A stretch of DNA of 64,000 nucleotides. Source: Tetradesmus obliquus. Its lineage: Eukaryota > Chlorophyta > Chlorophyceae > Sphaeropleales > Scenedesmaceae. Under the pieces are notes generated by a model, which was given only the letters and a program-made list of their open reading frames with translations, was not told where the DNA came from and did no database searches. The stretch is taken from assembly GCA_030272155.1 (NCBI GenBank), contig CP126197.1, forward strand, positions 3,650,001-3,714,000. The letters are read 5' to 3'. Numbering within the stretch: the stretch's first letter is position 1; the number at the start of each line of letters is the position of its first letter. Both the position numbers and the translations under genes were made by a program. This document shows, one piece after another, positions 1 through 64,000 of the stretch.

Positions 1-3000
1 AGGCGATAGCTGATCAGCCATGGCAGACAAAGCAATCCTGCCCACCTGTGCTTGGGGTCAATGTGGTCGTAGCTCATAGGTAAACAGCACAGACAACCAG
101 CAAACAAGTCATTCAAGCAGTAGCTCATCAGGCAGTAAAGACAGAACCAGTTCAAACAATGTGGCCTGCATACCTGTGCTTGGTGTCCATGTGGTCAAAG
201 CTGAGCTTCACATCCATGAAGCAGCCGCCCTTGGTGGGGTACCTGCAGCAGCAGCAGCAGCAGCAGCACGTCAGGGTGCTATTATGTCTTGTCCGAACTA
301 TTGCAGGTCGCTGCCCCACCAGTCACCTGCTAGTGCGGACTGGCCTCGTCTGCTGCACTCAACACCTGCATGCGCCTGGCTTGACCATGCTTTTTCCCTT
401 TTCATGCGCGTCCCCAAACAAGCCCACCATGATAAACAGCAGGCAAGCCACACACCACACTCCACACACCACACACCACAAGCACCTGCCTTGCTCCCCA
501 CATTTCTGTCTGCCCCACCACAGTCTCCAAATTCCAAATTAATTTCAAATTTATTCCAAACGAATTGAGTGTTGCTCACTTGGCTTTGTACTCGACCACA
601 AACTGCTTGGCCTGGCCGTCCACCACGGCAGTCGCGGTGCGCACGGGGCGCCCGCTGCTTGCCGCTGCACTGGCCGCCTCACTGGCTGCTGCTGCTGCCT
701 GCTGTGCGCCTGCGTCACCCTGCTGCAGGAAGTCCACCTGGCAGCAGCAGCAGCAGACAAATTTTCATGATGCTGACAAAATTGCGCAGCTTCACACCTC
801 ACACAAGACATTTAAGCAGTTGCTGAGCAGTGAACAGCCAATCAGTTGATGGAAAAACAGCCGCCACTGCGACGCACTTGGCCCTCCGCCATGCGCTCAC
901 CACAACACGGACCAAGTCATTCATTACAACACCACATTATAACATTGTTTGTGGCAAAGTAACGCACCTGGCCATCAGCCATGAGCTCCGGGTCAGGCAC
1001 AAACTCCTCCTTGCAGCCACGCGCCTTCAGCGCCGCCTGCAGCGCAGCAGCCTTTTCTGCGGCAGCAGCAGGCTTGGCACGAGCACTGATTGCGCCCGCA
1101 TCCACAGCAGACTGCGGGCAAAAACAAACAAACAGCAAGCAGCCCACACAGTAGCGTCAGCAGCAGCAGCAGCAGCAAAGGATGTATGTGCAGGCGTGAT
1201 GCTGTGGCAGGATGTGCACGTGCTGCACAATCTTAAACGGCTGTAGCTGGTGGCCAAAGCCCAGCCCCCCGACACTTAGCAGGTGCATTGTGTATGCATC
1301 GGCAAGCAAACAGAACCGTTGATAGCAATATCTGCACCTGCCAGGCCTTGCGCTCCAGGGCCAGCATGTTTCTGAGGCATGCAGGCACTAATGTGCACGG
1401 CTGCTAGTGCTGCACAACCCTACAAACGCCAAACTTGATGACACCTGAACCTGGCCCCGCACCTGCCATGCCTTGCGCTCCAGGGCCAATTTGTTGCCTG
1501 GGGGTGGCGCGCCGCACTCGTCAAACCACGCCTGGCGCAGCGCCAACATGTGCTCCTGGTCCAGCACAGGCAGCTGCACAGCCCTGCGGCACAGGGTGGA
1601 TTTGGAACAGAAATAGGTGTTGGGATAAGGCAATCTCAGTGAAGATAGACAGAGGGTTACAGGGCGCAGCGCCAGCATGTGCTCCTGGTCCAGCACAGGC
1701 AGCTGCACAGTCCTGCAGCGCCATAGGGTGGTTTTGGAACAGAAACAGGTGTTGGGATAAGGCAATCTCAGTGAAGATAGTTGGGCGGAGGGTTGCAGAG
1801 CGCAGCGCCAGAATGTGCTTGTGCTCCTGGTCTGGCACCGGCAGCTACACGGCCCTGCGGGAGTTTATACGGCATTGCATGTGTGGGTCGGGAGACGCAC
1901 ATGGCCGCAAGTTACACCTGCCAATTCTACAGTAATTCGGCGCTGACAGTGTGTCAACTGCACGAAGCCAACATAAGACGATTCAATAACAAGGACAACA
2001 ACCACACACAAGTTTGATTGCGCGCGCTCTTAAGCACAAAGCCTTGCGCAACTCCTGCTCAACAGCTCGCAGGCACGCCAACAGAGACTAACAACATTGG
2101 GGCGGAGCAAAGCTGTTGCGATTGGTGGTGTAGTGGTATAGGTGGTACAACCAATACCAAGACTACCACCAATCGCTACCGCTTTGTTCCTCACTGCCTT
2201 CATGTACAGGGCCATATTCAGTCTCCCGCCTAGGAGCGTGCGCAGTGCAGTGCACCGGCACATTTAACCGCCAGTGGACCTAACGCAACTGTTCACACCT
2301 ACTTACTTTAGACAGCCGCATTTCTGCACCTCGCTTGAAGTGATAACAAGTAATCGGGCTGCCACCCCAGCAGCGTGCGGAGGCATGGCAACAACTCGTG
2401 ATCCACTACCGATACAATTGATTACACCAGCTATGCTCATCACTCATTTGAAGTTGAAGGCGTTGTCTGGTGTTCTACTGAACAGCGTACTTGGTACAGC
2501 AGCACACCCAACCACCAGCAGACCCAACCCACATCTTGAGATCCCCTAGAGAGCCGCATCACTGCCAGTCACTAAATATACTAGCAAAATCAGCACCAAC
2601 AACAGCTGCTCTCCATACTCACTTGAAGTAGAAGGCCTTGTCGGGCCTCCTGCCCAGCAGCGTGCGCAGGCTGCCGCGCAGCTCCTTGGAGAAGCCGATG
2701 TACTGCAGCTTCTGGCCCTCATCGTACACGCTGAACACGGCGGCAGCGCTGCCGGGCACGATCTCAGGTGACACAAAGCCCTGCGGCAGGACACGGGAGG
2801 GGAAACATCACAGCCGCGGCGCTTTAGACACTGGGTAAGTATTGGAAATTCAAGCGGCGAGATGTACTGCAGCTGCTGGCCCTCATCGTACACACAGAAC
2901 ACGGCTGCAGCGCTGCCGGGGACAATCTCCGGTGACACAAAGCCCTGCGGCAGGACACGGGAGGAAGCGTACAGCAGCGGCAGCGCTTTCAGATGTTGGG

Positions 3001-3709
3001 TGGCTGGGGTTCATGGATGAACTGCATCTTCTGGCCATGGAGGTGCACGCTGAACACGGCAGCTGCGCTGCCAGACACGATCTCAGGTGACAAACAGCCC
3101 TGCGGCAAGAATCCAAGCAGCGTTAGAGTGGTGGCAGCAGCAGCCATGGGACTGGCTTGGGCGGCGGTGTGATGCACGGGATGTGCTTGGGGTGAGTGGC
3201 ATCTTGCTAGCGCGTGACCACGAAGGCCGCGCCCGGCAGACTGAAGGGACCCAGCAATGATCAGCAGCATTTCAAGCACCAAAACGAAAACCGGATCAAC
3301 GATCATGTGTGGCATACAAGCTGCGTGTGCAACGCTGTGTGGCACACACCTGAGGGTTTATGATGGCTTGCAGAGGCAGATCTGATAGTTTGGGCATCGC
3401 AGCAGCTCCTGCGGGGCTGCTTTCCACTGCTGCTGCGGCACAGACGATATTGCTGCGGAAGCTGTAGCGCTGCTGTCTCTGCATGGGGATCCCGACTGTC
3501 TGCCTCTGCTGCTGCTGCTGCTCCGAGCTGCGAAGTCCCGCGCTGCACATGCTTGCTTGCTGCTGTTGTTGTGGTAGAGCATTAAGCACCAATGTAGCTG
3601 CACTGACGCGTTGCCGAGGTATGCAGGAGGTTCCGGAGCTGTGCCGGCATGGTTTGCGACAGGAACTGCTGCTGTGCAGCTGCAGCTGCCTGTGCGCACT
3701 GAGATGCAT
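1..3709 (-). CDS. GIY-YIG-like domain protein, probably plastid-targeted (3' end beyond left edge)
   Basis: Six exons fit in phase: 3350-3709, 2623-2780, 1463-1583, 968-1111, 580-737 and 174-242, continuing past base 1. Exon 1 is a basic, Ser/Gln-rich leader of about 120 residues that looks like a plastid transit peptide. Exons 2-3 encode a GIY-YIG-like fold start (SPEIVPGS, VFSVYDEGQKLQYIGFSKEL, LRTLLGRRPDKAFYFK) and then AWFDECGAPPPGNK. These resemble the N-terminal GIY-YIG domain of plastid glutaredoxin GRXS16 and its single-domain relatives; no glutaredoxin CGFS motif is present. Exon 4 carries ISARAK and an Ala/Lys-rich helix. Exon 5 could end at an in-frame TGA (576-578), but that TGA lies in a perfect donor (AA|GTGAGC), and exon 6 (YPTKGGCFMDVKLSFDHMD) joins in phase, so I extend the gene. 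Exons 2 and 3 have diverged extra copies in the neighbouring introns. Nuclease activity is not implied; the function is unknown. Confidence 0.65.
1536..1858 (-). repeat. Three tandem copies of the exon 3 acceptor edge (GIY-YIG gene)
   Basis: The block coding for VQLPVLDQEHMLALR with its upstream acceptor occurs at about 1536-1586 (functional exon 3), 1662-1718 and 1797-1853, at roughly 130-base spacing. The intron text between copies, including a stretch around GTGTTGGGATAAGG, is also repeated at about 1616 and 1751. Another fragment of the exon's 3' end (LALERKAWQ plus donor) lies at about 1338-1370. Confidence 0.85.
2640..3110 (-). repeat. Three tandem copies of the exon 2 acceptor edge (GIY-YIG gene)
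   Basis: The acceptor and the start of exon 2 (SPEIVPGSAAAVFSVYDEGQ) appear at about 2695-2790, again at 2855-2955 (SPEIVPGSAAAVFCVYDEGQ) and again at 3015-3105 (SPEIVSGSAAAVFSVHLHGQ). Only the copy nearest exon 3 continues into the full domain. The other two diverge after the QYI/QFI position. Confidence 0.85.
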
Positions 3710-3940: not shown

Positions 3941-6900
3941 CTAGTGCCCGTGCTCGTGGTGGAACACGGCTGAGAGCACCAGGGGTAGCAACATGCCGAG
4001 CGATACCAGCAGCAGCTGCCCTCTTTGATGCAAGCCAGCTGCGTGCATGCCAGCTTTGCTGCTGCGGCCCTTGAGGGACAGCCCTGGCCCAGCCGCTGCT
4101 GTGCTGCTGCTGCTGTGCTGGTGGTGTGTGTGTCGCCCCAGGGCATCAGGAAGGATGTGCATCGTGGCTGCAGCACACACGCAGTAAACAGCAGCAAGCA
4201 CGCAAGCATGCTGATGAGGATGACGGTTCAAGATGTGTGGGCGGGACTTCACGCTGTCCCCTCCGTTCAGAATCCCTAGCATGTGAGCAAGGCACAGCTG
4301 CTGCTGCTTCACTGGGTACAGTGGAGGCACAGCTACTGTGTGAGATTAACAGCGTGTGTCTTCCTGTCGGTAGGAAGTAAATCATGTGAGCTTCTGACAG
4401 CGACACCCACCAGCATACAGCACAGTGCCTCCAGAAAACAGCACCGCCAGAGCAATGCTGCTGCCGCCAGACAGCCCAGGCAGCGCTGACAGCGCCGCAT
4501 ACGTCAGCAGCGCAGCAGCCGGCGAGGCCAGCGAAAACAGCAGCATGCCTGCAGCACATGACGCAGCACATGCGGCAGCACGCAAGCATGTAAGTGAAGG
4601 CACCTAAGCAACCAGCACAGCAGCCGGCGAGGCCAGCAAGAACAGCAGCATGCCTGCAGCACATGCGGCAGCAGCACACAAGCACACCTAAGATGACGGC
4701 ACACGTACGGCGTACACTAACGGAGGCTTACACAACAGCCCATGGACTTTGTCAGCGCTGCCGGCTGCTTTTCTTCCCTTGTCATTCGCTCCATGCATCG
4801 GCACCAGGCCCATACCCATTTTGCACAGCCCCACCACACCTTTGTGCACCCTGCCAGGCGTCCAGCGTGCGCTGCGCAGGTAAGCTGCCAGCCCTACTGC
4901 CACCGGCCCCTTGTGCACCACCATGCCTGCTGCATTGCTGAGCGTTGTTTTTCACCCACTGGGTGATTTGTTTGATCTGAGGCAAGTGATATGTTTGACC
5001 TAAGGCGGCATGCAGTCTGTGCAGTATTAAATGCAGCATGTTGCATGGGTTCTTCTGAGTTTGCCCAGCAAAAGCACTTGCACCTGTGTGCACTCTGCTG
5101 GCGCTCCAGCGCGCACTGCGCAGGTAAGCTGCCAGCCCTACTGCCACCGGGCCCTTGTGCACCACCATGGCTGCTGCCACGCCAAGGCCCACTGCAGGCT
5201 CAGCAGCAAGGCTGGCGGCACCCACGGCCAAGCCATCAGACGCTGCAAAGTGCAGAACAGAATGCAAAGGCAGAAGCCGCAGAACCCAGGCGGTGTTAAC
5301 TGCGTGGCAACACATGCATCACACGTGCACACTGTCAACGGCACTGTCAATGGCATGTGATCTTGCCACACATTCAGGAGGAGCCCAGCCAGCAAGCAGG
5401 AGCCGCCTGGGTTTCTAATCGTGCTGCATTTAACGTTGTGTGTTTGCAGTAGTTTGTGTGCCTGCTCGTGGACTGCTCTACCTCCAGTGTGCTGCTTGCT
5501 TGGGTGCAGCCTCTACCTGCTTGATCCTCATGCTACACAGAGAAACTTGTTGACTTTAACACAAGTTCCACACTTAATCAGCAGCCAAGAAACTTGAAGG
5601 GTGCCCACCTGCATGTACCATCAGCCCCAGCAGTGCTTGCTGTGCTGGCTCCTTCAGCCAGCTGCCAGCCAGCCGCCCAGCAGCAGCAGCAACACCCCCT
5701 GTTCTTAACACCCCACCACTACCTGCTGCTGCTGCTGCTGCTGATTGTTTCTGCCCTGCTTGCTGACCACTAGCCCTGCTGCCGGCAGCCCTCACTCCCA
5801 GGCTGCTGCTGCTCCTGGCAGCGCCGGTATTGCTGCTGCTAGCTGCTGCAGCGGCTGCAGCTTCCTCGCGAGCTGATGTCAGCGGCAGCTGCCGGAAGCT
5901 GCCACCTGCACTGCTGCTGCCTAAGCCAGGCCGCTTGACTGGACTGCCGCCGCGGCTGCTGCTGCTGGCAGCTTCTCTGTCACTACCACCCATGCCAGAG
6001 CTGGTGCCACCAGCAGATCTGCTAGTTACACCTGCGGCGACAGTATTGCTAGCAGCAGTTATGCCAGGCCACGCTGGGTGTGAAGTTCCTGGTGCTGGGG
6101 TGGCACTTCTCGGTGAAGCTCGCGGCGTTGCCGGCTGTGAAGTTCCTGGGCGCCCCCTGCTGCTGTCGCTGTGCGGCTGCATGTCCGACAGCAGTATCAC
6201 GTGCTCATCATCGCTGCACTGCTGATCTGCAGCATCTCCAAAGTCAGGCGGCTGACCTGCGCTGCTGCTGCTGCTGCTGCTGCTGCTGGGGCTGGGCAGC
6301 AGGCTTGCTGCTGTGTCCAGCATCAGCATGAACCAGAAGCCTGCTAGGAGGGACAGTGAGATGCCCCACTCTGGTAGGTGGGACTCCTGCAGGCCAGCAG
6401 CAGCAGCAGCAGCAGCAGCCGCATCAGCGGCAGCAGTGGGGGTATCATTCAGCTTGCAAAGCGCATTCGACGTAACTGGCCAGATGGCAGCTGCGGAAGG
6501 AGGGAGCTTTGCGGCTGACGGCAATGAGTGAGAGCAGTCACACGTCATTCGCTGAAAAGCATGTGCATGCCGCAGCACAGCTACTTAAGACGGTTAGCTT
6601 GTGCTTATGTACTACAAGCAGTAGTACAGCAGGAAGGCTTGCAGCGCACCTCGAGTGCCTCCATGGCTGCTTCAAAGCCTGCAGGCAGAAGCATCGCAGC
6701 TCAGATCAGCGCTGCTGCCACTGCCGGGGCATGCATTGCATGCAGGCGTTGCCCACAAGTACAGAAGTATGGATGCAAGTCAGACACTCTGGCATCTTGC
6801 TGCCTCATCTATCCAACAAACCACTTTACGCCAACCCCTACAGAGCGCTATCAGGCTTTTTGACGACGCAACGAGCGGGGCTAGCAGCTTTGAGTGGTGG

Positions 6901-7396
6901 TAGCAGGACCACTGACCTTCAGGCAGGATGATGACAAGTGCACTCCCCAGCAGCAGGCCGGCACCTAGTGCATTGACCTACACCACAAGCAAATCAACAT
7001 GCTTTGCTTGAATGCGCAGTTTTGCATCCACTGCGGTCCGTGAGGACTCGGAGGATTGTCAATTCGTTCCTCAACACGAAGCGCATGTATATACTTTGTC
7101 ACACAAAACAGCGCAGCAAGTGCGGCAACTCTACAGTATGGTGCAGGGTTGGAACCACATGCAGCCGCCGTTCTGCTCATGTAGATGTTCAGCACATGCT
7201 CATGTGCAGCGGGCAGCAGTAATTTATTGCTAACCTATTGCACCAGCTGTTTGCTCTGCCAACTCACACTGGCGAGGCGTTGCTCTGAGATGGGCAGCCA
7301 TGAAGGCAGCATGCCGCAGCCATAGGCACCCACAAACATGAGCACGCATGTGGCCAGCAGCCCTGGCAGTGATGAGCCGTGTGCTGCTTCCACCAT
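3941..7396 (-). CDS. ZIP9: ZIP-family metal transporter, ZIP9/SLC39A9 type
   Basis: Seven exons join in phase: 7268-7396, 6917-6977, 6650-6678, 5609-6551, 5084-5242, 4411-4548 and 3941-4167, giving about 561 residues. Order of parts: a first membrane helix (VLMFVGAYGCGMLPSWLP, then ISEQRLAS), a second (VNALGAGLLLGSALVIILPE), GFEAAMEALE, a long Ser/Ala/Gly-rich insert (about 300 residues in exon 4), a third helix (EWGISLSLLAGFWFMLMLD), LMVHAASDGLAVGAA (metal-site helix 4), AMVVHKGPVAVGLAAYL (helix 5), SGGTVLYAATMHILPDAL, and a His-rich tail ending LPLVLSAVFHHEHGH. These match ZIP9, which moves zinc or related divalent metals across Golgi or plasma membranes. Start 7396 is chosen just before the first helix; an in-frame upstream ATG at 7615 would add 73 residues. 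The insert between helices 2 and 3 is much longer than in animal ZIP9. Confidence 0.88.
4840..4926 (-). other. In-frame partial duplicate of ZIP9 exon 5 (possible alternative exon)
   Basis: This 87-base segment repeats the helix-5 half of exon 5: it reads MVVHKGPVAVGLAAYLRSAR, then WTPGRVHKG in place of WSASRVHTG. It has its own acceptor (TGCAG|GC) and donor (AAAG|GTGTGG) and is phase 1-1, like the parent exon at 5084-5242. It could therefore be spliced in as a cassette without shifting the frame. A shorter acceptor-side copy of the next exon lies at about 4618-4665. Confidence 0.6.
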
Positions 7397-8179
7397 GCTT
7401 GCTGCTGCTGCTGCTGCTACTGGTGCTGCTACGACGCGAATGGTGCGGCGCTGCGTAGCACGCCAATTGCTGCTGCTGGTGTGCTGCCTTGGACGACAGC
7501 AACCGCTTTGTGCTGAGAGCCTTGCACCGTATGTTGGTGTTGGGGTATGGCTGTGATGGAAGGTGGGGCAGGGGGGCCTGCTGCTGTGATGGTTGAGCCT
7601 GATCAGCTGCAGCATTGGACGTTCTGCAACTCCAGGGGCTGCTACATCAGCATGTCACTAGGTCACCAGGTGATTCACAGTATACCAAACAATTATATTG
7701 CCAATGTACGCTCTCTGTACCGAAGGATCGAGTCGTAGGTCGCACCCTAGATGGTGAGCAAGTGCAGTGCTGCTGCTGGTGCCACGCGTGCTTGCATCCC
7801 TGCGGCTGATACAGTTTAAGATTGTAACAGTGTGTTTGCGGATGTTGTTTCGGCATGAGGAGGGCTGCGTGACCTCCGTATTCAAAAACCTGAAAAGCAC
7901 AAACGGTCACTCGCCATCCTTTCTCCCGTTGTTCCTGCACCGAATGTTGACTTGAACGAGCTGTAGAAGTTAGTGTTCTGATGTGAATGCTGTGCACTCA
8001 CGACAGCGTGCTCCCACAACAACATCGCCAGAGCCGTTTGTTGCCCTGTGGAGCCTTAAGAATTTACCAGAGTGCGAAAGGCAAATGAACAGCAGACGCA
8101 TCAGTACCTAGCGGTGTATACAGCAGCCAGGCCGGTGAGCAGTACAGCACAACACAGCATCAGCGGGAACAGCTGCTAA
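7397..8179. promoter_or_regulatory. Shared 5' region between divergent ZIP9 and CENH3
   Basis: The ZIP9 start (minus strand) and the CENH3 start (plus strand) face away from each other across about 780 bases, or about 560 if ZIP9 starts at 7615. A bidirectional promoter is inferred from position only; I did not find a convincing TATA box or a shared motif. Confidence 0.35.
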
Positions 8180-10020
8180 ATGGCAAGGACGAAAGCCAAA
8201 CCGGTGAGCAGAGGCCTTATTCCCTCACAACCACAGGTTTTTTTAGCGTTTCAGCACCTGCTGGGCCTGACTGAACATCTGCACACCCAGGCTGCTAAGG
8301 CCAAGCCGCAAGCTACGCCACCTAGGCGCGGAAGCGGTGCTGGTGCTGCATCGCCTGCTGCTAAGGCTCCAGCAGCACGCACCCCAGCAGCAGCAAGGAG
8401 GGCTACTGTGCCGCAGACTGAGCGCAGTGAGTACAGCAGCAAACACGCAGCAGCAGTTGCAGGGCAGCAGTACAGCAGGACACCTTCTGCTGCACCCCCT
8501 GTCACTGCCGCGCATCAAACCTTGCTTGCCCCCACATCGTCTTGTGCCAGCATGCATGCAGTATATGCTATAGCATACAAAGTTTTCTGGGCAGCCATGC
8601 CCTGCACACCACCCAGCAAACACAGCAACTGACTGTCTCGCATCTGCTGCTGCATGCTGCCGTTTGCTGCTTCTGCTGTGTGGCACACTGCCATGTGCAG
8701 AGAAGCACAGGTACAGGCCGGGCACGCGTGCCTTGCAGGAGATCCGCAAGTACCAGAAGAGCACCGGGCTGCTGGTCCGCAAGGCTCCCTTTGCACGCGT
8801 GGTGAGAAGGCACAGCTGCTATATGACAGTTTGTGTGGATGCAGCAGCTCTGCAGCTCTGACTGCAGCCATTCCTGCACTGGCAGCAGGCGGTGTTTGTG
8901 GCTAGCCACAAACAAGGGCGATACTTGCTGCACATACGCAGCTGCAGTGAATGCCGCAGCAGCACCACACAGCAGCAACTGCACTGCAGCGGCGCAGGCT
9001 GTGCTGCATGCCCATCGCTGGCTGCAGCCGCTCGCCCGCGTCGTGCACCTTCTGTGCACCATGAACTCAGCAACTCAGCAAAACGGAAATGAACATCAAC
9101 TGCCGCACGTGATGCGCTGCAGGTGCGTGAGATTGCCAACAGGATTGCGCCGGAGCCCTTCAGGTGGACGGCTGAGGGCCTGATGGCCCTGCAGGAGGTG
9201 AGCAAGGCACAGCCAGCGCGTTAGCAAGCCAGCAAGCTGCAGAGTCAAACACATATGTGCAATAGCCAGGCATGCCAGAAGCGTGTGTTATGTGTGCAGC
9301 TGCTGCTGCCAGTCTGCAGCATGCTTTTGGTGCTGCCTTAACAGGTCAGACACTGTCGGCAGCCAGCCAGGCGTTTTGCATGAGGCTCGAACTGCTCGGG
9401 AGCATCATACGTGTGTCCAGTAGCGCTATTGTCATAACTCTTTTTGTAACACCTGTTTGCCCTGCACATTGCTGCTGCTGCTGCTGCCGCTGGGTCAGGC
9501 CACGGAGGACTTCATGGTGCACCTGTTTGAGGACTGCAACCTGTGCGCCATCCACGCCAAGCGCGTGACCATCAGTGAGCGCCCGCGCCGCTGCTGCTGC
9601 ATACATATATCAACAAGGGCGGTTGCCACTTGGATGCATGCAAGCAGGATAGCAATGTAACCCATGGGTCTTTGAGACACCTGTGTCACTGCACAGCAGA
9701 GATCACCCCGCTCCCAGTGTGTGTTGCGGGTTGTTCCAGCAGCAAAGTGTAGGAGTGCATGCATCCTCCAGTGCGGTGTGCCTGGCCGAGTAGCCGCTCC
9801 TTGCGGACCACCTGCCGCGTGCTGCCGCGCTGACGCATGCCGCAGCTTGCTGCTGCCACTTGTGATAGCACTGCTCACTGGCCCGTGCGACCGTGTGTCC
9901 TGCCGTGCTGCTCTGCCCTGCACTCTGCTGCTGCTGCTGCTGCGTGTTTGCGCAGTGCCCAAGGACCTGCAGCTTGCGCGCCGCATCCGTGGGCCAGTGT
10001 ACGGCGCAGCATCCTTCTGA
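8180..10020 (+). CDS. CENH3: Centromeric histone H3 variant (CENP-A/CENH3)
   Basis: Six exons join in phase: 8180-8203, 8291-8426, 8701-8801, 9123-9197, 9499-9574 and 9956-10020, giving 158 residues. The N-terminal tail starts MARTK, as in plant CENH3, and is then unlike H3: it is Ala/Pro/Lys-rich and lacks the conserved H3 tail. From residue 55 the histone fold begins ([20 protein letters not shown]). CENH3 hallmarks are [18 protein letters not shown], a loop 1 one residue longer than in H3 with the diagnostic RWTAE (about residues 101-105), and [20 protein letters not shown]. Canonical H3 has LRFQSSAV in place of the RWTAE segment. The end is [13 protein letters not shown] followed by an extra PVYGAASF. 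The protein would replace H3 in centromeric nucleosomes and mark the kinetochore site. Five introns also argue against a replication-dependent H3 gene. It is divergently paired with ZIP9. Confidence 0.88.
8893..8914. repeat. 22-base perfect palindrome in CENH3 intron 3
   Basis: The two halves are exact reverse complements around a central GCTAGC: TGTTTGTGGCTAGCC, then the mirror. It sits in the intron between exons 3 and 4. It could form a small hairpin or be a dyad binding site; no function is claimed. Confidence 0.8.
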
Positions 10021-11389
10021 GGTTATCGTGGAGCTTTCTGAAGCCTGGGCAGCTGCGCCGCTGGCATGGTGATCGCAACAAGCACGGTTTGTGGTGGCTG
10101 CTTGCGTCAGCGAGCAGCGCAAAGTGCGATGCTGCGGCGGCGGTTGCTGGGTTGGGCTGCAACTGTATGTTACAATTTGATGCCTGGTGCGGTGCTGCAG
10201 ATGCACGGGGGGCGGCTGTTGACATACTGTTGACCAGAGACCGATGGGTGGGTGGTGTGACGGGTGGTTGTCTGCTGCTGCCAGTTTCAGCAGCTGGGCT
10301 GGGTGGTGCTTTGGGGCAAGGACGCGGCTGGTAGTAGCCGAGAAGCAGCTAGGCTACATATTACACGCAGGCGATGTTTTGATGACGCATGCTGCAGTGC
10401 GTGGCTGCCGGTGACGTGGTGCTGGTGGCTGCCTGCCAGCTGCCTCGCATACTGCGATGGTGCAACTGTGCCGTCGTTCGATTGTCGACGTTTTTGAGCT
10501 CTGCGAGACGTTAGCTACTGGCAGCAGCCTTGGCAGTGCTGCATGTGCATGATGTTGCTTACAATGGCCTCACAACAGCCATGCTGTTGGCTGCAGTCTT
10601 GAACTGGTGGCTGTGACTGTTTGACATACACAGCAACCTCGTTGTGGCTGTGCCAATCGATGCATTTGTGCCGGTCGTTGCGTTGCTGTCGGCAAGGGCA
10701 GCAATGTTGTGTATGACTTCAACGTGTAATACCCATCATGTATCTTTGGGCTGTCTCTTGGCTGTCCACTCATGGCACAACAGTTGCTCGTCCAGGGTGG
10801 ATGATGCATCACAATCTGTTGTGCATGCAACCTCAGCGCAAAACTTCCAGGCACCTGCAGTAAGTCACAATTTTAGCCAATTGTCTGATGCAGCATATAA
10901 AAAGATGTCAGATGCAGCATCCTCAACATACATACCAGCCCTGCCAGGCACGCAGCGAACCGTATGGGTAACCCCCACCTGCTGCCTGGTGAAGGCCGTG
11001 AGGGAGTCTGGGTGGTTTACCCCTCACCAATAGAAAGGCAATAATAGTCGTAGTTTCCGCTCCATTACGGGGCGCGGTTGCCGATGCCGATAAGGTATGG
11101 CTTACAAGAAGACTATTAATATTATTAGGCAGCATCCTCAGAAAACCTCGTAGACCCCAATTGTTTTCAAAACAAATCCTTCCGTCACAACTGCCGGTGT
11201 TGCACATCCATCAGCTGTCTCAACAATAACTGTCAGCTCATAGACCAGTGCAACAAGCACTGCACAGTGCAGGCATGCTTGCACCAGGGCCGGGTTCGGC
11301 AGAATAAGCCTCTTAGCCTGGTTTGCAAGGACACATCAACTAGGTGCGCACAGCCCAAAGCACGCTGTACATGCAATACATTTGTGCGC
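10021..11389. other. CENH3 3' flank, no gene recognised
   Basis: GT/TG-rich sequence downstream of CENH3. Open frames here are short and have no family resemblance. It probably contains the CENH3 3' UTR and the 3' flank of the minus-strand gene ending at 11390. Confidence 0.4.
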
Positions 11390-11912
11390 TCAGGGCAGGC
11401 TCCTGGGGTCAGCCTCGCCCGTCTTGACCTTCTCCACCTGCTCCTTGAGCTGCGCACGGTTGTCAGCCCTGCAACACAAGCACGACAACAGAGGCAGCAG
11501 CAGCAGGTTCGGTGCAGCTGGGTACCAAGAGGTGAAATTGCACGGGATAACAATGCCAGGCAGGTGAGCAGCAGCATCATGGCCGGGCCCACGTTGCTTT
11601 GCAGGCGCTGCAGGCAATGTGGGTGGCATGTACGGCTTCAAGGATGCCTGCAGCGCTTGACATATGTGAGGCACATTTGATAGTAGCAGGTGCGCTTTTG
11701 CTGTGCACTGTGCATCATGCAAGGTAACAACCAACGTTGCCTGTTGCCTCAAAGCAGGGCTCACTTTTTTTCATCTGCTGGGGCCTGTTGACGGCAGTTA
11801 TGGCGCGTGTTGCAGAGGACTCTCCCGCAGCCTGGGCAGCAGCAGCGCTGAGCAACGCAGCAGCTGCAGCAGCAGTGCCAGCCAGCACCTGCCTACGGGG
11901 CACTGCCCTCAC
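11390..11912 (-). CDS. Small protein with twin-arginine, thylakoid-lumen-type signal (5' end unresolved)
   Basis: Three exons fit in phase: 11765-11912, 11593-11647 and 11390-11468. The first gives VRAVPRRQVLAGTAAAAAAL, then LSAAAAQAAGE: a twin arginine, a hydrophobic Ala/Leu core and an AxA-type cleavage region, as in bipartite lumen-targeting peptides. The mature part reads RPQQMKKSILEAVHATHIAC, SACKATADNRAQLKEQVEKV, then KTGEADPRSLP and stop. The start codon is uncertain. The open segment at 11915-12253 beginning MFTVLTQLQPLQ could hold a transit-peptide exon, but no convincing donor joins it. An in-exon Met just before the acceptor is the alternative. I do not recognise the family. Confidence 0.45.
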
Positions 11913-12259
11913 CTGCATGTGTTTGAACCAGAAGTGTGCAGGCAGCAATGGATGTCAGCAGCAGGGGTAGCTGAACTGTATTTCCTGCTGACTGTGTGCT
12001 TGTGTACTGCAGTGATGCTGGTGACAGGCGTCATGTAAGACCTATCCATCAGGTGGCCTGTTTGCAGCGCATTGAAACTGCAGCGAGAAAGCTGAGCAGC
12101 TACAAGCACAGGTGACGTCTCTGGCTTGATTTCTTTTGCCTTGCAGCACAGCTGCGGGCTCAAACAGTTTGCTGAAGTGCGGACTTTGGAGCAGCTGCTG
12201 CTGTCACTTGCATTGACTTGCAGCGGCTGCAGCTGTGTTAAAACAGTGAACATTGACAG

Positions 12260-13288
12260 CGGTCATTCTCGAAAGTGATGGCATTGATGCATAGCGATCG
12301 CACCTGTGCATTGCACTTCACAGAAGCACGACGTGCAGGGGCCACTGGCCGAGCAGCAGAGCGGGTAGCACTGATCGCCTGCATTGTCGCTGTGTTGTGC
12401 TGGAGAGTTGCGAATTAAAAAACGCTTATAATATCAGCTGTAACCAGTGTTTGCTGTTCACAGCACGGCCTTTTGAGGCTGAACGAATTGACGATGATTC
12501 GTCACGGTTGCTTCGCCCTGCGAACGCAGCAACCTTGGACACCGTCCTATGTTTGCCATGGGTCCCTACATGCTGGTGCTGATCAGCGTAACACCTGTCG
12601 GAAATACATTCCTCTGCACAATAAAGTAGAATAGTCGCATTTATAAAAGAAGCTTGAATTTTTTATGGGTATCGTGCCGTATGTTTTGCTAGGCAGCCCA
12701 CCGTCGCCCACCATCGCTGACCAGTAAAAGGCGGCAGTCTGGCACACGAGTGTTTGAACGTGATTGCTGCATACAGGAGAGCATGCGGTTCCAGTTGTAC
12801 CGTGTGCTGTTTTTGTGTTTGGTATCACTCTGAGGTCTCGTTAGCAGACATGAACTGCCAGCAGCAAAATCACGCACACGGCGCCGTGCAAAACACGGAA
12901 CTCGAACTGCGACTTCCACGGTGCTGCCGCTGTCATCTGTGCATACGCCCGAGAAGTCGGTCTTATGCCAGGTCCTCGACTGACTGATCCGAGCCCGATG
13001 CTCCTACTACCATAATGGCTGCATAGATACCCCAACCACTACAAATGTTTCTCTCGTGTGTGTATGTGTATGTGTGTCTCTCTCTGTCTCATGTGCCGAG
13101 AGTTGCATAATGCCAATTGTGCTCACGAATTCGTTCGAACGAATTGGGTGTCTGTTGCAGCGTTCAGCTCGTCGTTGCCTGCGCACACCCTGGCACCCAC
13201 ATTTGGTCCTGTGAAGGCTTGTCGGAACTCAATTTCATCAACTCTGTCGGTGTTGCCTTGGCACTATGCAAACTGATATCAAACAAAA

Positions 13289-13331
<43 letters not shown>

Positions 13332-14441
13332 CACTCTATTGCCCAGGGGTCTCAACCTGAAGGCGTGCATTGCACGTCGTCCTGCACCACACCTCCTGCA
13401 CTCTGTGCAATTGCAAAGCTGCGAGCGCGCCTGTGCTCATTCTGATGCAGCGTCCAATGTTTGGGTCCCTCTCAGGCGACAAGGCAGATCACGGGCAACC
13501 AGACCGCCAAAACTCAGGAACTACTTTGAAATTGATCACAAAGCACCGTCAACACTTATAGCGAAGCAACAGTTGCAACCCGGCCACATATCTCCAATCA
13601 GCCAGGAGCTTGAAGCCCAAGCTGGCACTGAGATCACACAAACAACTGCTGCTTCTCCTGCTTCCTTGCGAGGAAAACAACAAACCTACACAACTGTGCT
13701 GGAAATGACAACACAACAAGGAAGAGTGACGAGGTCACTTCCGGGATCACCAGTGACTACAAGAGCGCCGAAGACCGTCAGTGCCGTTGCCCCCCAAGGG
13801 CTCCGTGGCTCCTGGGGACGGCACTGACCAGGTTGTATATTGATCGCAGGTAATACTTTAACAGGAGCAGGAGCAGGAGCAGCATGCACAACTGCGGTTC
13901 AACAGCCACGGTGGCCATTGGGGGGACCACTTCTAGACTTGTGAGTGACGCAATATGCTGCATTGTGCTACTGCAATGTGTGTTACCTGCAATTCTTTAT
14001 ACAAAGCATTTCAAGGGCTACCTGAAATTCTGCAGTGTGACGCGTTTCTGTACTAGCTGCATGTGCCTGGCACTGCGTGCGCAGCGTGACAGTCAGCAGT
14101 GCTGTGCATTGTAACACCACGCGAGGTCCCCCATCATTGGTCAATCACCGTCATCATACTTTTACTACCCATTGCAGCTGCAGCAAGGAACCAAATCAAT
14201 TCCTGCCACCACACTCCTGTGCACTGTGCGTCCCCCGCATGCATGCAGCAATGCTGCTGCAGCTCTGTTATGGGCACCACTGCTGCTGAATCTGCTCGGA
14301 GGCCCTGCAGCCCTTCAAGTTGTTGGACCCTAGGGGCCTGCTGGCACCCCATGGGAGGGTCAGCATTTGGCTGTGACAGGCGCTCGCTACCATACAGCAG
14401 AGGTGCTGCTGCTGCTGCCCTCAAGCCACCAGCTATTGAGG

Positions 14442-14475
<34 letters not shown>

Positions 14476-14916: not shown

Positions 14917-14959
<43 letters not shown>

Positions 14960-55688: not shown

Positions 55689-58600
55689 TCACAGCTCATC
55701 CCAGGGTATCCTTGCAGCAATGCTGTGGATGGTGGTGGTGGTGGAGTCGGCCATGCCTTCGCCGTTGCCCGACACGATGCGCAGCAGGTCGTTCAGCATG
55801 CCTTCATTACCAAGGATCTCCACATGCGTTGAGGCACCCGGGCCGCCCCTGCAACAGCACAACAACAAGGCAGGTGGAGAGTCAGCGGCACAGCTTAGTT
55901 TCACTTTTGTGCACAGCATACCAACCAGCAGTACGGCACACACACGCCGACAGCCATACAGAGCAACAGCAGCCAACACAAGCACTGCCCTGCTGCCGCA
56001 GCCACACTTATCTCCCACCTGCTGGTGTGCACTGCTTTCACAACCTGTGCCTGACTCAAGTGCAAATACATTCCGCAACACAACAACCCAGCCTCATGTT
56101 TATCAACCGCGCCAGTGCATGAAACAATCGTGCCTCACCGCGTGTCCTTCAGCCCCGGCCCCGCCTGGTTCGGGTACTCGCAGCACCACGTGCAGCTGCC
56201 CACCACATTGCAACACAAACAACCCAACCGCATGTTGATCAGGCAAGCCAATGCCTAAAACATCTGTGCCTCACCGCGTGTCCTTCAGCACTGGCCCCGG
56301 CTTATTTGAGTACTCCCGCAACACCACCTGCAGCTGACAACCACAATGCAATACATCCCCCGCAACACATACCACCCAACCTCATGATGATCAAGCAAGC
56401 CAATGCATCAAATATCCGCGTTTCACCGTGTGTCCTTCAGCACCGGCCCCGGCTTGTTTGGGTACTCCTGCAGCACCACCTGCAGCTGCAACCACAATGC
56501 AGCCCAACCGCATAATAATTGACCAAGAAAATGCATCAACTGCACTCACCGCGTGTCTTTCAGCACTGGTCCCGGCTTATTAGGGTACTCCCGCAGCACC
56601 ACCTGCAGCCCTGCTGGGTTGAGCCTCCGTGTGCGCCAGCCGCCGGCACACAACGCGCCCAGAGACAGCAGCGGCACCGTGCCGTCGCCATCAGGAGACA
56701 GCTGCACGCCAGACTCCTGCAGGGTGGCAGGCGCAAACGAGTGTTCATACTTGTACATTACTGGTATACTTGTACATTACTGGTATACTTGTACATTACT
56801 GGTATACTTGTACATTACTGGTATACTTGTACATTACTGGTATACTTGTACATTACTGGAAATAGTTGCTTGAGATTGATCAGCTGTGCGCCAGACTCCT
56901 GCAAGCAGGGTAAAAGGAACGCGTGCATATAAAAAGACATGCCACGTGCAGCACACTGGGTTGTCAGCAGAGGTAAGCAGGCTGCGTGGGACCAAAGGCG
57001 GTGAGCAGACGCCGATGGAGTAAACTGTAGCAATGCAGCACATTCAGCGGCCGAAGTTGCGGCGGCAGCTGTCTGTGATCATTGCAAACAAGCCACCTTT
57101 AAAATTCGCAACCACACTTGGCGCAAGCGTCGCTGCCGCTGCTGTTGTGCACGATGCAGATGATGGAGCTTAGGCAAACACCTTTGGAAGCTTCGGAAGC
57201 TCACCAGGCCCGACGCGGGGTCATTGACCATGCCATTGATGCTCCACTCAGTGGCGCCGCCCCTGCGGCTCTTCAGGTAGTGGTAGCCGCGCTCTGTGGG
57301 CGTGCCCACGCCATACATGCAGTACAGCTTGAAGTGAGGTGCGTGTGGCAGCGGCGTCTTGACAGGGTTGATGGGCAGCACCTGTGGCAGCAGGGAGATG
57401 TGCCCAGAAAAGTTTGCAGAGAAGGACGTGGTTGGATGCAGCACGATGCAGGGATTGACTGCATGTCAGTCAGCAGTGGGGTGCGCGCTGCATCGACGAT
57501 TGAAGGCGGTGGGAGTAGTTTCAGCGGTGTGAGTGGTGGGCGTGCCCACGCCCTACATGCAGTACAGCTTGAAGTGAGGGCCGTGCGGCAGCGGCATCTT
57601 GACACGGTTGATAAAGAGAGAGGCGGTTGATGGGCAACACCTGCTGTGTCAGGGAGATGTGCCATATCTCTCTGCCACCGCAGGTGTTGCCCGTCAACTC
57701 TGTAAAGACGCCCACAAACATGCAGTACAGCCAAGAAAGGGTTAAGAAGGTTGTGACAGGAGGCAGCACGATGCAGGGATCAACTGCATGTCAGTCAGCA
57801 GTGAAGGCGAACTGCGGGATAGAAGTTCTGGTGGCAGTGGGGGTAGTTTCAGCGGGGTGAGTGATGGGTGTGCCCACGCCATACATGCAGTACAGCTTGA
57901 AATGGGGGGCATGCGGCAGCGGCGGCTTCACCGGGTTGATGGGCAGCACCTGCGGCGAGGTAAGAGCACAAGGAACAGTGTGTCTGGAAGCGGAGAGGCA
58001 CATGCGCAGCTACCTGAAAGACGATCCCGGTACAGATGAAGCATCTCTCTCCCTGCATGTGTGGCAAACGAAACTTGTAGAACTACATGCAGAACTCCCC
58101 TTCCCCTCTTCTTCAAGGAGAAGTTCTCCACGCACACAAGCTAGCCATGAACCTACATACACCAAGCAACCCACCCACCTCATCCTTGCCACCTGTGCTG
58201 CCTTCCGTGTCATGCGTCTCCTCACCGCCACTAGCAGTACTGCTTTCAACCCCTGCCAGCTGCTCCATCTTCCGCATCTTCTCACTTGACACATCCACCT
58301 CACCCTTGCAGCTGCCGCTGCTGCTGCTGCTGCTGCTGCTGTCGCACGCGCTACAGTCCGCCCCTGATCCTGAGTCAGCACACTTGCAGGTCCCTTGGTA
58401 GTCCCCGGGCTGATCCGGATCCACAGCACAGCTGGCCTTCTGCTGCTGCGCTGCGTGCTGCAGCGCTGTCTTGCGGTGGTGGGCTAGCACCTGTGTGAGG
58501 TCTAGCTGGTGTGCTGCAGGGGCCCAGCGCTGCATGTTGGTGGTGAGCTGCTGGCCTGCTGTGGCTGCCAGGGAGAGCAGCGCGCTGTGCACGTCCAGGA

Positions 58601-59444: not shown

Positions 59445-62400
59445 CAGCAACCTTAGCATATTTGACGTTGCATGTTCACAATGAACCTGAACTAAGATAC
59501 AGCAGTACTGACTAGTCAGTGGCGGCGGCACGCACAGAGCAGCAGCGCAAGACAGTAGCCCAACGGATGGCCAAACTCAAGGCGCTCAGAAGTTGCAAGC
59601 ACAGTACTGTCAGCAGCACAACACGGTGCATTTCAGCAGCTCCACGCGCTGTGCAAATGCAAAAACCCATTACCTCTTCTGCATGCAGCTTTAACTGCCA
59701 CTCGCTGCACAGCTCAGCTCACCCGTACGACCTGCCAGCCGCAGTGACCTTCTCATCGTCATCTGGCGCATGCGTGGCGTTGCCCCACACTTTTGGGCCA
59801 CCCACGGGCAGCATCGCCAGCACTGAGCCCCACGTGCGGAACATCTGGCGGCGGGCAGCAGCAGCAGCAGCAAGCAAGCTAGCAAGCCACTGCCGGCACA
59901 GAGAAATTGACAGCAGTAATCCCCATAGCATACTGAGGAACGGTCTTGGAAGTGCACACACCCTTGTCCATCTGCCAACCCTGCCGATCACTGCACAGCA
60001 GTCTCGCAACAGTATACAAGATGTACTGCCTGTCTTTCAACCTAACATAACACACAGCCGCTCACCGCTGCCCTGCTCTGCTTGCCCAGGTACTGCTCCA
60101 CCAGCACAGCCAGGCCTGCCATCATGTCCACAGTCTCACGCGTCTCGCCTGCAGGGGTGCGGCAGGTGTCAGATGAGATGACGCAACGCAACTGACAGGC
60201 TCAAGATGAGCAGGGGTGGTGAACAAGTGGGAGCGTTTGGAGTGAGGTTGATCAACATGCATGCCTGTTTGGGATGGTTGCCACATACATCACTTGCGCA
60301 TACAAAACACTGTGGCACATAGTATGTGAGCCAGGTATGCATGCATGCACAAGCAGCAGCTCTGCTCACCAGACAGCAGCGGCGACACAGCTTTTGGTAA
60401 GCCCAGCAGCGGCCCTGCTAGATTCAAATAGCCGTGCAGATGCTTGTCCACCCAGCCTGGCTGCTGTCCCTCCACCCAATTCATGAATGCCATCGTGACC
60501 AGTGCGCCGTACGAGTGCGACACGAGCACCGGCTTGATGCGCTGCTGCTGCAGTTGCATCTCGACTTCGGTTTTGAGGCGCGTGAAGTAGCCGTCGCGTG
60601 TTTGCATCACGGGGATGGGCAGGCGCCAGTCGTACGGCACAGCCACCTGCGTGCAGGCAGAAGGTGCAGCACCAGCATCATACAACATATTTGTGACCAC
60701 TGAAGGCAGCATTAGGAGTCACAGGTGTTTGCACGCACATCACGGGGATGGGCAGGCGCCAGTCGTACGGCACAGCAACCTGCACAAGGCAGAAGGTGCA
60801 GCACCAGCATCACATACAATTGTTGGAAACTGTTGAAGTCACCATTAGGGATTGCAGATGTGCACACACATCACAGGGATGGGCAGGCGCCAGTCGTACG
60901 GCACAGCCACCTGCACAAGGCAGAAGGTGCAGCATCAGCACCAGATACAGATGTTGAAGACTGTTGAAGTCAGCATCAGGGATCGCAGATGTTTGCACGC
61001 ACACAACTGGGATGGGCAGGCGCCAGTCGTACGGCACAGCCACCTGCACAGATGCAGGAGACGCAGCATCAGCACCATAACAAAATGTGTAGTTATTGTG
61101 GTCAGCGCTAGGGATTGCAGATGTTTGCACGCACATCACGGGGATGGGCAGGCGCCAGTCGTACGGCACAGCCACCTGCACACATGCAGGAAGCGCAGCA
61201 TCAGCACCAGATACACATGTTTGTGACGGCTGAGGTCAGACTTTAGCATCGCAGATGTTTGCACGCACATCATGGGGATGGGCAGGCGCCGGTCGTACGG
61301 CACTGCGACCTGCACACTTGATGGAGACGCAGCATGCACAGTGATCACAGAGAAACGTGCTTCAGCGACATGCCTCTGGCTGCTGCCCTGAGCACAGCCA
61401 CAAGCAATGGCTGACCAGGGCCTTTGCACCAACAACTTTATCAATTAACGTTGATGTTTTTATGTATTTTTCATCAGTAAAATCAAACTGTCAAGCTGTC
61501 GTCAACCTGGCGCGGCTGCTGCTGCATGATGACGGAAGGGAACCGCAAGGCGGGATTGCACCGGCAGCCATGCATGTAACCGACAAAGTTCAAACACACT
61601 GTGGCACTGTATGATCAAAATCGTCTCAAACAACTTCTTCAAAAGATGCTGTGTTGCATCACCATCAGCCCCCCCCAACCCACCAGATTGTTGTTGTCGT
61701 AGCCGATGTCAGCCAGCGACTGCACCAGCTTGCTGAACACCCAGTAGCCCGGCACAAAGTAGTCCACCGCCTCCAGCGCCTTGGCGGCGCGCAGCTTGAT
61801 GCCAGGGGGGTCAGAACCTGAGGCAAGGAAGCAGCCATACAGCCAGTGTGCTTGGATGCAAAGAAGACACAGCTGGTGTGCCGTGCATGTATCCTGCAGT
61901 GCTGCATCTTGCAATTTTTTTATTATGAACCGCCAACAATCAACTAACCGCCAACAATCAACTAAAGTAACCAACAATGCATCATGTATGTGCTGTGCTG
62001 TGCTGTGGTGATCACCACACCTGTGACTGGGTCCAGCTTCATGTGCCGCATCCAGCAGCCGCGGTCCGCCAGCAGCACGTTAAGCACCTGCCCTCCCACA
62101 CGCAATACATCCAGAAACCAAAAGCCTGAGGCATGTGTGCATTCAACCACAGTATGTGCCCACCTGTGACCGGGTACAGCTTCATGTGCCGCATCCAGCA
62201 GCCGCTACTAGCCAGCATGGACAGCACATCATGCGACGTGTGATCATGCAACACGTGTGCATTTCAGACACCTGTGCCCACCTGTGACTGGGTCCAGCTT
62301 CATGTGCCGCATCCAGCAGCCGCTACTAGCCAGCATGGACGGCAAATTTGACAAATGACAAATGATCATGCGCCACGTGCGCGTTTCAGACACCTGTGCC

Positions 62401-63647
62401 CACCTGTGACTGGGTCCAGCTTCATGTGCCGCATCCAGCAGCCGCGGTCCGCCAGCAGCGTCTGCGCCATGCTCAGCGTGCCCCACAGCCGCTGACGGAA
62501 GTAGCTCTGCGCACACTCCTCGCCCTGCCACAGCTCCAGCCCAGAGGTGACAAAGCCTGCGGCACAGCAGGAAATGGGTTATGTGCGCAGCATGGTTTCA
62601 GGGTTTCTGCCTCATGCATCCCTGCGTTCTTCCAGTGACAAAGCCTGCAGCACAGCAGCAGCAGCAGGTGGCCATGATGGGGCCTGATGGGGCTGAAACT
62701 GCGTCATGCATGCGCTCTCCTCGCCCTGCCACAGCTCCAGCCCAGAGGTGACAAAGCCTGCGGTACAGTAGCAGCAGATCAAGGACAGCACGCAGGATGG
62801 ATAACCAGGGTCTTGATCACTCACATTGGTTGTGTCGGGCCCTGACTCTCGGTGTCTCTAGGTTTCTCCCCTTACCTGTTACCTGCGGGCTGGTGGCTGG
62901 CTGCCTGCAATGGTGCTGTGCATGCACACCCTTGCTGGTCACGCCAAGCAACCATGTGAGGCAAACAGCAACATCCAAGCAAACCGCAGCATCAGTCTGC
63001 GAGTGGCAGCCTGTTTGAATCTATGCGTTGCAGAGACTGACACACACCTGGCACAATAACAACAGGGTGGTGTGCCTTGAGGCCCTGCTTCGCTGCCATC
63101 TGCCCCGGCCGCGGGCCGTCGTCCCCAATGATGCTGCTGACTGTGTCACTCAGGTTGGCCAACTTTTCAAGAAAGCCGTCCAGGCTCACGTCAAACTGCT
63201 CCACCTGCAAGGCACAGGCGATGAGCATATCATTGCACTCAACACTGCTGTCATCACTCTGCAAGGACATCAGTCACCAGATACGTCAACGATTGACGGC
63301 TGCTATCCAGTCGGGCTCGTGCGGTGTCCTGTTACGTTCAGCCCTGCACTCTAACAAGTTTCAATTCCCTAGTCAGGACGCCAGCCAGCGGGGAGCCTGC
63401 TCTTTGGGTGGCTGCTGCTGCTGCTGCTGCTGCTGGTCGAAGCCTGTTGCATGTAACCTAGCAGCTGGCACTGCTGTGGAACGCAGCACGCAGGGTGGAG
63501 CCAGCGCAGAAGGCTGCTGCTACACTGCATGCCGCTGCTTGTAGCGGGCAAGCCTTGTTAGCAAATAAAAATCCTGCTCAGCAGACCTACCAGTGTGGTG
63601 TTAAGCCGCGAGACGCTGTCGTTGACTGCCGCACGTACGCGCTCATC
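55689..63647 (-). CDS. PDAT1: Phospholipid:diacylglycerol acyltransferase (5' end probably beyond right edge)
   Basis: Twelve exons join in phase: 63591-63647, 63048-63204, 62404-62556, 61684-61817, 60370-60646, 60066-60148, 59723-59844, 58938-59394, 58179-58610, 57205-57381, 56550-56716 and 55689-55848, giving about 791 residues so far. Landmarks: HHPVVIVPGFVTSGLELWQG (lid region), CWMRHMKLDPVTG, AAKALEAVDYFVPGYWVFSK, VPYDWRLPIPV, the nucleophile elbow VSHSYGALVTMAFMNWVEG (Ser at 60512-60514), LNLAGPLLGLPKAVSPLLSG, MFRTWGSVLAMLPVGGPKVW, HFKLYCMYGVGTPTERGYHY, DGDGTVPLLSLGALC (Asp of the triad) and STHVEILGNEGMLNDLLRIV (His of the triad). It is an LCAT-like fold enzyme that moves a fatty acid from phospholipid or galactolipid to diacylglycerol, making triacylglycerol. 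Exons 58938-59394 and 58179-58610 form a long acidic, Ser/Gly-rich insert, as in other algal PDATs. The first 57-base exon starts in phase 0 without a Met, so more 5' exons are expected to the right. Confidence 0.92.
56135..56615 (-). repeat. Four copies of the donor edge of a PDAT exon
   Basis: The exon end LREYPNKPGPVLKDTR with its GTGAG donor at 56550-56610 (functional) recurs at about 56420-56480, 56272-56335 and, weaker, 56135-56200, at about 135-140-base spacing. Each copy keeps CACCGCGTGTC and the CTTCAGC words. Confidence 0.88.
56744..56862. repeat. 19-base minisatellite, about six units
   Basis: Tandem units of TACTTGTACATTACTGGTA repeat exactly six times in a PDAT intron just upstream of the acceptor region of the exon at 56550-56716. 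Because 19 is not a multiple of 3, the protein reading repeats every three units. Confidence 0.95.
57250..57960 (-). repeat. Direct and inverted copies of a PDAT exon acceptor edge
   Basis: The exon start VLPINPVKTPLPHAPHFKLY at 57310-57381 is repeated directly at about 57540-57640 (diverged) and 57855-57955 (VLPINPVKPPLPHAPHFKLY). A further copy of VLPVNSVKT lies in the opposite orientation at about 57676-57710. It forms an inverted repeat with the direct copy at about 57623-57655. Confidence 0.85.
60605..61315 (-). repeat. Six-unit array of the PDAT catalytic exon's acceptor edge
   Basis: The acceptor plus exon start coding VAVPYDWRLPIPVM is present at 60605-60649 (functional) and five more times upstream, near 60740, 60878, 61008, 61139 and 61270, at about 126-136-base spacing. 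On the plus strand each unit contains GGGATGGGCAGGCGCC, GTCGTACGGCAC and CACCTGCAC. The intron text between them (GATTGCAGATGTTTGCACGC-like words) is shared too. Confidence 0.95.
62015..62770 (-). repeat. Copies of both edges of the PDAT exon at 62404-62556
   Basis: The donor edge (CWMRHMKLDPVTG) at 62396-62450 recurs at about 62277-62335, 62157-62215 and 62025-62085. The acceptor edge (GFVTSGLELWQGEE) at 62515-62560 recurs at about 62715-62765, with a shorter fragment near 62634. Confidence 0.9.
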
Positions 63648-64000
63648 CTGCAGGAGCAGCAGCGTAACATTGGGCAGGCATGCGTCAGAGCACGCAATTT
63701 ACACCGCAAGCATGCAGCTAAACACCAGGGCATGTTGCTGTGTGTGCATGCACAGCTGGTGAGAGGTGGAAAGCGTCGTACTCAACCCCAGCCCAAGCAC
63801 ACAACAAGCATGCATGTCAGACTCCAGGCGCACCATCACCGGCAGACCACCGTGTGTACTGTGTACAGCGGCACTGCAGGAAGTACTTCGCTGCTGGGCT
63901 GCCAATCAACTTTGCTTGCAGGACGCACGCTAGCATGCGCACTGTTCACCTGCTGTCCGGCTGCATTCTACTAAGAGATACGGCGGCATCCCGGCTGCCA
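63648..64000. other. Right-edge sequence upstream of the first PDAT exon seen
   Basis: Expected to be PDAT intron and possibly an upstream exon. A minus-strand frame beginning MPPYLLVECSRTA near 63990 has a possible donor but does not match the phase of the next exon, so it is not joined. Confidence 0.3.

Follow-up and report, generated by a model that had tools for sequence, protein, structure and literature searches.

Local copies of exon edges in the adjacent introns of Tetradesmus obliquus

In the green alga Tetradesmus obliquus the edges of many exons, together with their splice sites, are copied into the adjacent introns. This observation, made earlier in a sequence-only reading of a single stretch of DNA, was confirmed here in 264 kb of the genome (104.66 Mb, 17 contigs). 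The sample consisted of that stretch, a window of 64,000 nucleotides (C7:3650001-3714000, contig CP126197.1), and one 100-kb stretch each from contigs C1 and C4. With a 45-base probe, 67 of 291 splice junctions (23%) were found to have the exon edge copied nearby. Small local duplications are familiar as mutations; what is unusual here is their number.

Frequency of exon-edge copies

Splice junctions were taken from a gene finder. As the finder fuses genes and misreads the stretch around the histone gene that the sequence-only reading had named CENH3, the strong exons were limited to predicted pieces of more than 60 bases with a score of at least 8. They provided 336 strong junctions, of which 291 were testable, masked probes being skipped. 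A junction was counted as positive when its probe scored at least 21 and the copy lay within 900 bases. Control probes were positive less often, in 11/198 cases from the middle of introns, 8/122 from intron sequence 40-85 bases from the edge and 1/40 from the interior of exons. When the identical junction probes were compared with unrelated DNA no match was obtained (0/291). Clusters of repeats showed the same preference: 58 of 89 crossed a strong junction, compared with 22.4 ± 3.8 under random placement (maximum 34 in 300). We concluded that duplicates are commoner at exon edges than elsewhere. The earlier statement that most junctions are affected was too strong, since the positive fraction reached 33% (35/106) in the window, which was selected by a reader and is no fair sample, and was 25/112 in the single stretch from C1 and 10% (7/73) in the single stretch from C4. 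Donors (32/150) and acceptors (35/141) were both represented, and the frequency varied beyond chance among 10-kb blocks (chi-square 46.6, 24 degrees of freedom). By alignment, 63 of the 336 strong predicted junctions were crossed by copies.

Local direct repeats were searched after masking of short-period repeats. Within a distance of 1.5 kb, 75 pairs were found in the window and 244 in the 264 kb, and a comparison of 91 unrelated 3-kb pairs returned no repeat match. A strong exon was touched by 119 of the 244 pairs and a weak exon by 17, while 108 lay in introns only, many of these representing one satellite, and none was classed as intergenic. The satellite, located in C4 at approx. 3.0905-3.0926 Mb (L028:507-2593), is long, has a unit of about 52 bases with mostly 92-95% identity, and inflates the raw pair counts. 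Repeat coverage in the 264 kb was 0.14-0.23 over the last 60 exon bases and the first 20 intron bases, 0.04-0.11 between intron bases 20 and 80 and 0.15-0.30 at about 180-260 bases, where the copies lie. Deep within exons, over 100 bases from the edge, it was only 0.02-0.03, and the 26 kb predicted to be intergenic had a coverage of 0.009. The CENH3 gene had been described as free of copies, and accordingly the approx. 10 kb around the histone gene (5178-15258) held no listed local repeat pair, in a stretch where the gene finder also failed.

Anatomy of the copies

Acceptor-edge copies had been reported upstream of the exon and donor-edge copies downstream, and at 63 of the 67 positive junctions the copy indeed lay on the side of the intron. 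The reported two to six copies per junction agreed with the PDAT gene (minus strand), where the acceptor edge that continues into the full exon (60605-60671, exon starting at 60646), identified from repeat pairs and the annotated T. obliquus protein P0121, is accompanied by five more copies 131-134 bases apart (60738-61335; repeats, protein comparison). A spacing of often 110-140 bases had been noted as well; the nearest spacing was 100-148 at 31 of 57 junctions, 96-183 at 43 and at least 96 at 56. Farther copies often lay near multiples of the spacing, as in PDAT at 133, 264, 397, 529 and 663 bases. Three edges whose array members were predicted as exons (C4 98886, C4 99053 and window 15448) were omitted from the analyses of spacing, flanks, stops and nonsynonymous to synonymous differences (N:S).

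The median exonic extent of the copies was 53 bases. Splice dinucleotides were kept in 92 of 102 copies (AG in 52/55, GT in 40/47), a count favoured by the requirement that alignments span the junction, which selects for copies with surviving splice signals. The median site scores of the copies, 5.40 for acceptors and 5.51 for donors, were close to those of the real sites (6.45 and 6.77), the medians of intronic AG and GT being -0.14 and -0.89. Young arrays include the intron spacer, and many older copies retain just the exon part and the splice signal. Homology of the intron flank was found in 12/17 pairs with an exonic identity of at least 0.93 and in 9/27 and 4/12 pairs in the older bins; copies with too little flank were left out of this and the other flank comparisons. 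The abrupt loss of similarity at the splice site might suggest that the exon alone is copied. We rejected this interpretation, as the loss was partly an effect of gap costs and flank homology was significant in 25 of 56 nearest copies under laxer gaps.

An in-frame stop was present within the exonic part of 7/102 copies, and of 3/22 at protein-verified junctions, and 17 of 18 indels in exonic parts were not multiples of three. Some copies, e.g. 15383-15448, were called exons by the predictor.

DGD1 and PDAT compared with their proteins

Two genes of the window could be checked against proteins. The DGD1-like protein assembled from window exons matched T. obliquus OEZ86_007880, whose exon segments showed no internal mismatch to the window and differed at segment ends only; the PDAT-like protein matched T. 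obliquus OEZ85_013090. Nine of the ten strong predicted pieces of DGD1 corresponded to annotated exons, the tenth (27923-28000) being a copy. Copies flanked 8/18 junctions in DGD1, with the first exon omitted, and 6/22 in PDAT, together 14/40. This count uses a score of at least 18, and 13/40 were positive at the general threshold of 21, below which the PDAT case 56713 falls.

In the annotated proteins (P0001, P0121) and their relatives (P0002, P0003; P0122, P0123) each copied edge peptide is present a single time; the genome contains 1-5 further copies. The earlier remark that one copy per junction connects to a full exon was borne out for DGD1 and PDAT, whose proteins contain only the copy attached to the exon body. 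Alignments of two copies, 28519-28596 in DGD1 and 57535-57612 in PDAT, displayed in-frame stops.

Both genes are on the minus strand. In DGD1, repeats and protein comparison located two copies of acceptor edge 28285 (28366-28596, the farther with the in-frame stop), one of acceptor edge 27771 with 10 synonymous and 2 nonsynonymous differences (27903-28004), two of donor edge 26930 (26695-26865), two of the exon end at 26196 (25698-26029) and one of donor edge 29707 (29468-29533). Repeats, junction alignment and probe added a copy of donor edge 27557 (27248-27325) and copies of donor edge 30294 (30031-30213). For PDAT, the donor edge joined to exon 62404-62556 (62401-62459) has two nearer copies (62155-62335), and a copy of acceptor edge 62556 lies at 62712-62771, all by repeats and protein comparison. 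A distant copy of the same donor edge (62018-62076), found from repeats, is identical over 59 bases but shows no recognisable homology in the intron flank. Acceptor edge 57381 has two copies, the nearer with an in-frame stop (57536-57956; repeats, protein comparison), and copies of donor edge 56549 lie at 56073-56486 (repeats, protein comparison, probe).

Divergence between exons and copies

Exons and copies differed mainly at synonymous sites, the proportions of nonsynonymous and synonymous differences being 0.054 (pN) and 0.245 (pS). Between the exon and its nearest copy N:S was 116:184 over 57 junctions, i.e. 0.63 (0.47-0.84), where about 1.2 is expected if the copy is neutral and the exon free to change at synonymous sites only. 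The protein-verified junctions gave 35:62 over 22 copies. Between copies, 184 nonsynonymous and 167 synonymous differences were counted. Over 27 junctions, changes private to one copy amounted to N 91 and S 66, the neutral expectation being 2.39:1, and sites at which all copies agreed against the exon to N 7 and S 34. Furthermore, 48 of 101 copies had no detectable intron-flank homology at a pS of 0.28, a divergence at which the decay model would retain 99% of the flanks; in 8 of these 48 the exonic mismatch was at most 5%. It is likely that something beyond passive decay is involved, which would be exchange with the exon plus weak, second-hand selection on the copies.

Origin and persistence of the copies

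With moderate confidence we favour an explanation that combines short tandem duplications, their persistence at exon edges, continued exchange with the exon and weak selection. Short tandem duplications, often of 100-150 bp, would be a frequent event in this genome. If such a unit spans a junction, the working edge remains the copy attached to the body of the exon, and the other is left behind within the intron together with a splice signal of its own, as the sequence shows and, for two genes, the proteins too. While the intron part of the unit decays in both copies, selection on the working exon would hold the exon part in place; edge copies would therefore remain recognisable longer and accumulate at exon borders, as the age trend supports. 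Exon and copies may then keep exchanging by gene conversion or unequal exchange, and weak selection could act on the copies, since the real edge can be replaced or overwritten by them. A broader and doubtful extension is that exon edges form small, multi-copy, exchanging families, in which unexpressed copies come under second-hand coding selection and introns grow by recruiting the ends of their own exons.

Several points weigh against this explanation. The gene structures are mostly predicted, by a finder whose training set was the very 264 kb to which it was applied; it merges adjacent genes and misreads the histone stretch. The decay model may understate large indels. In comparisons between copies, exonic divergence was below flank divergence at only 5/10 junctions. 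Between exon and copy the exonic part was better conserved than the flank at 17/21, which neutral copies would also give, and where flanks were recognisable the mismatch of 0.071 in the exonic part and 0.123 in the flank is likewise compatible with neutral copies. Gene conversion alone was rejected, because by reasoning it should not lower N:S. Finally, simulated uniform birth with neutral decay put 0.17-0.22 of the detected duplications at edges (0.13-0.23 by class), and random placement of the real multi-copy clusters 0.25. The simulated fraction is far below 58/89, thus persistence alone is insufficient, and uniform neutral duplication with faster decay of introns was rejected as the whole explanation.

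The same excess over the simulated decay speaks for targeted birth, in which duplications start preferentially at splice junctions, e.g. through nicks or breaks associated with transcription or splicing; we consider this possible, if rather unlikely. It is also consistent with the sharp lower limit of the spacing (at least 96 bases at 56/57 junctions) and with the full-tandem clusters of at least 75% identity, 17/23 of which crossed junctions compared with 8.9 ± 2.3 at random (maximum 15 in 500). The youngest of these, with an identity of at least 85%, were not significantly enriched, as 6/10 crossed a junction compared with 4.0 ± 1.4, ten clusters being few. One satellite makes up two of the four of these youngest clusters that have no edge; in its absence 6/8 are at an edge, which leans towards targeting and is a further point against our explanation, the random expectation of 4.0 applying to all ten. 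Units of similar length also occur away from edges, as at C1 19320-19859 (unit 118, 98% identity). Partial clusters were at junctions in 54/81 cases compared with 16.8 ± 3.5 at random. Since the edge association is strongest in the older copies, we prefer to interpret it as prolonged survival of copies at exon edges rather than as targeting. The edge counts are if anything low, as the cluster at window 56073 (at least 75%), entered as having no edge, sits at a protein-supported PDAT donor that the finder left unmarked. The earlier proposal of an ongoing tandem duplication across exon borders was thus upheld in part: arrays with spacer, graded ages and good splice signals agree with the lengthening of introns and the scattering of decoy splice sites, while targeting of the borders was not supported by the youngest clusters.

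The strong splice signals retained in the copies could indicate a selected function, either as decoy or buffer splice sites or by translation in some isoforms. The private changes (N 91, S 66) and the several copies that differ from the exon synonymously only (9/9 differences in the copy closest to C1 68946) point in the same direction. We regard such a function as improbable, since in-frame stops and frame-disrupting indels occur in the copies, the point in the exon at which a copy ends varies, and the copies are missing from the DGD1 and PDAT proteins, whether annotated or derived from transcripts. That the copies are translated exons was rejected on the stops, the frameshifts and the absence from these two proteins.

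A little less probable still is an origin from haplotypes, a hybrid or the assembly, i.e. pieces of divergent alleles that either the assembler or an unequal exchange between homologues would have arranged in tandem: synonymously biased differences and poorly alignable introns do resemble functional alleles, but the arrays hold up to six regularly spaced and mutually diverged copies, some copies carry stops, and for two tested genes no second edge copy near 90% was present elsewhere in the genome. PDAT of another T. obliquus entry differs from the window by few residues outside low complexity, which makes alleles at a pS of about 0.2 unlikely. A homeologous source was rejected, as a search with two edges found no second copy near 90%.

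Comparison with known systems

Tandem duplications of intron-exon boundaries are recognised by a unit of exon, splice site and intron repeated head to tail, and of the 23 full-tandem clusters of at least 75% identity 17 were of this kind. In potato RdRp such a duplication, as described in PMC4974935, gave rise to a new intron. Its unit covers the 3' part of the intron, the acceptor and the exon start, like the acceptor-edge copies described here. Unlike that case of one gene and a newly spliced intron, the copies in T. obliquus involve many genes, both kinds of edge and up to six copies. Intron gain by duplication of exonic segments likewise multiplies splice signals by local duplication; it makes a new intron, whereas in T. 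obliquus the duplication affects junctions that already exist and its products stay within the old intron. AGGT-type tandem-duplication intron gain, which creates an intron in continuous coding sequence and leaves the protein unchanged, was rejected, the copies lying in existing introns and being absent from the proteins of the two genes. Internal gene duplication is common (Gao and Lynch 2009, as cited in PMC4974935) and similarly consists of frequent small duplications within genes. The copies here consist of partial exon ends instead of entire exons or introns, and neither of the two checked proteins contains them. Duplicated mutually exclusive or cassette exons copy the whole exon with both splice sites and are used in the mRNA. 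The copies here are edges with a median exonic extent of 53 bases and are missing from the proteins of two genes, although the predictor takes some of them for exons.

Introner elements form dispersed families, and through them intron sequence grows by inserted copied DNA. Intron sequence grows by copied DNA here too, but each copy matches its own neighbouring exon. An assignment to introners was rejected: in a whole-genome search with two edges the best matches beyond the query, among the best-scoring candidates, were the local copies. The remaining matches were diverged loci of 74-76%, presumably paralogues, for the DGD1 query, and for the second query weak matches from position 228 or later, outside the edge.

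Among the listed matches in the open-access literature, titles and openings of abstracts contained no report of this pattern, and we do not claim that it is unpublished. The main text of PMC7955037 is without the word "intron", and in PMC3488318 the relevant terms occur in the reference list only.

Between a tenth and a third of the splice junctions in the three stretches are accompanied by copies of themselves, some old and some young. Should the rest of the genome be alike, it would offer a natural experiment on the choice of the spliceosome between near-identical sites and on the lengthening of introns, and a test of whether exchange with the exon lets selection hold unexpressed DNA. Gene predictors may mistake such copies for exons, as the finder did here.

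Copies in other genes of the window

The remaining copies in the window concern predicted structures, all on the minus strand. In addition to the domains of DGD1 (glycosyltransferase) and PDAT (LCAT), Pfam supported ZIP, DEAD helicase, DUF3181, Myb and PHD domains; histone-family matches for CENH3 lie at 8697-8807 and 9496-9582. A Pfam search with the piece named GIY-YIG in the sequence-only reading gave no match. In this first gene, repeats and junction alignment indicated a copy of donor edge 1463 (1334-1370), copies of acceptor edge 1583 (1663-1860) and weak copies, 71-75% identical, of donor edge 2623 (2188-2488); copies of acceptor edge 2780 (2861-3110) were found by repeats and alignment. 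The ZIP gene, with its Pfam domain, has a copy of donor edge 5084 (4837-4933; repeats, junction alignment).

The presumed helicase gene, named ISE2 earlier, contains many. Repeats and alignment gave copies of acceptor edges 15314 (15393-15453), 15785 (15907-15962), 17292 (17382-17416) and 22197 (22248-22312, exonic mismatch 1/62). Repeats and junction alignment gave copies of acceptor edges 18884 (more than one, 18950-19181) and 19558 (19625-19704) and of donor edges 21441 (more than one, 21074-21226), 22063 (21946-22000) and 23789 (more than one, 23376-23702). In the presumed Myb-PHD gene, a copy of donor edge 46694 (46475-46533; repeats, alignment) shows four differences, all synonymous, and a copy of acceptor edge 49262 lies at 49316-49412 (repeats, junction alignment).

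The GC content of the window is 52-64% per 2 kb; T. obliquus is listed in PMC5966456 with 108 Mb, 57% GC, a mean intron of 462 bp and 7.8 introns per gene. Runs of CAG/GCA are abundant in the window (e.g. 35193-35275, and inside the frame 47061-49310) and encode Ala/Gln tracts where exonic. A TTA repeat of 28.7 copies at 16172-16257 corresponds to poly-asparagine in the minus-strand frame 16132-17403. A perfect tandem repeat at 56747-56859, with 5.9 copies of a 19-base unit, is apparently very young. In C1, predicted coding sequence at 1067955-1068349 (L015:7955-8349) contains a tandem duplication of 108 bases, a multiple of three, with 97% identity.

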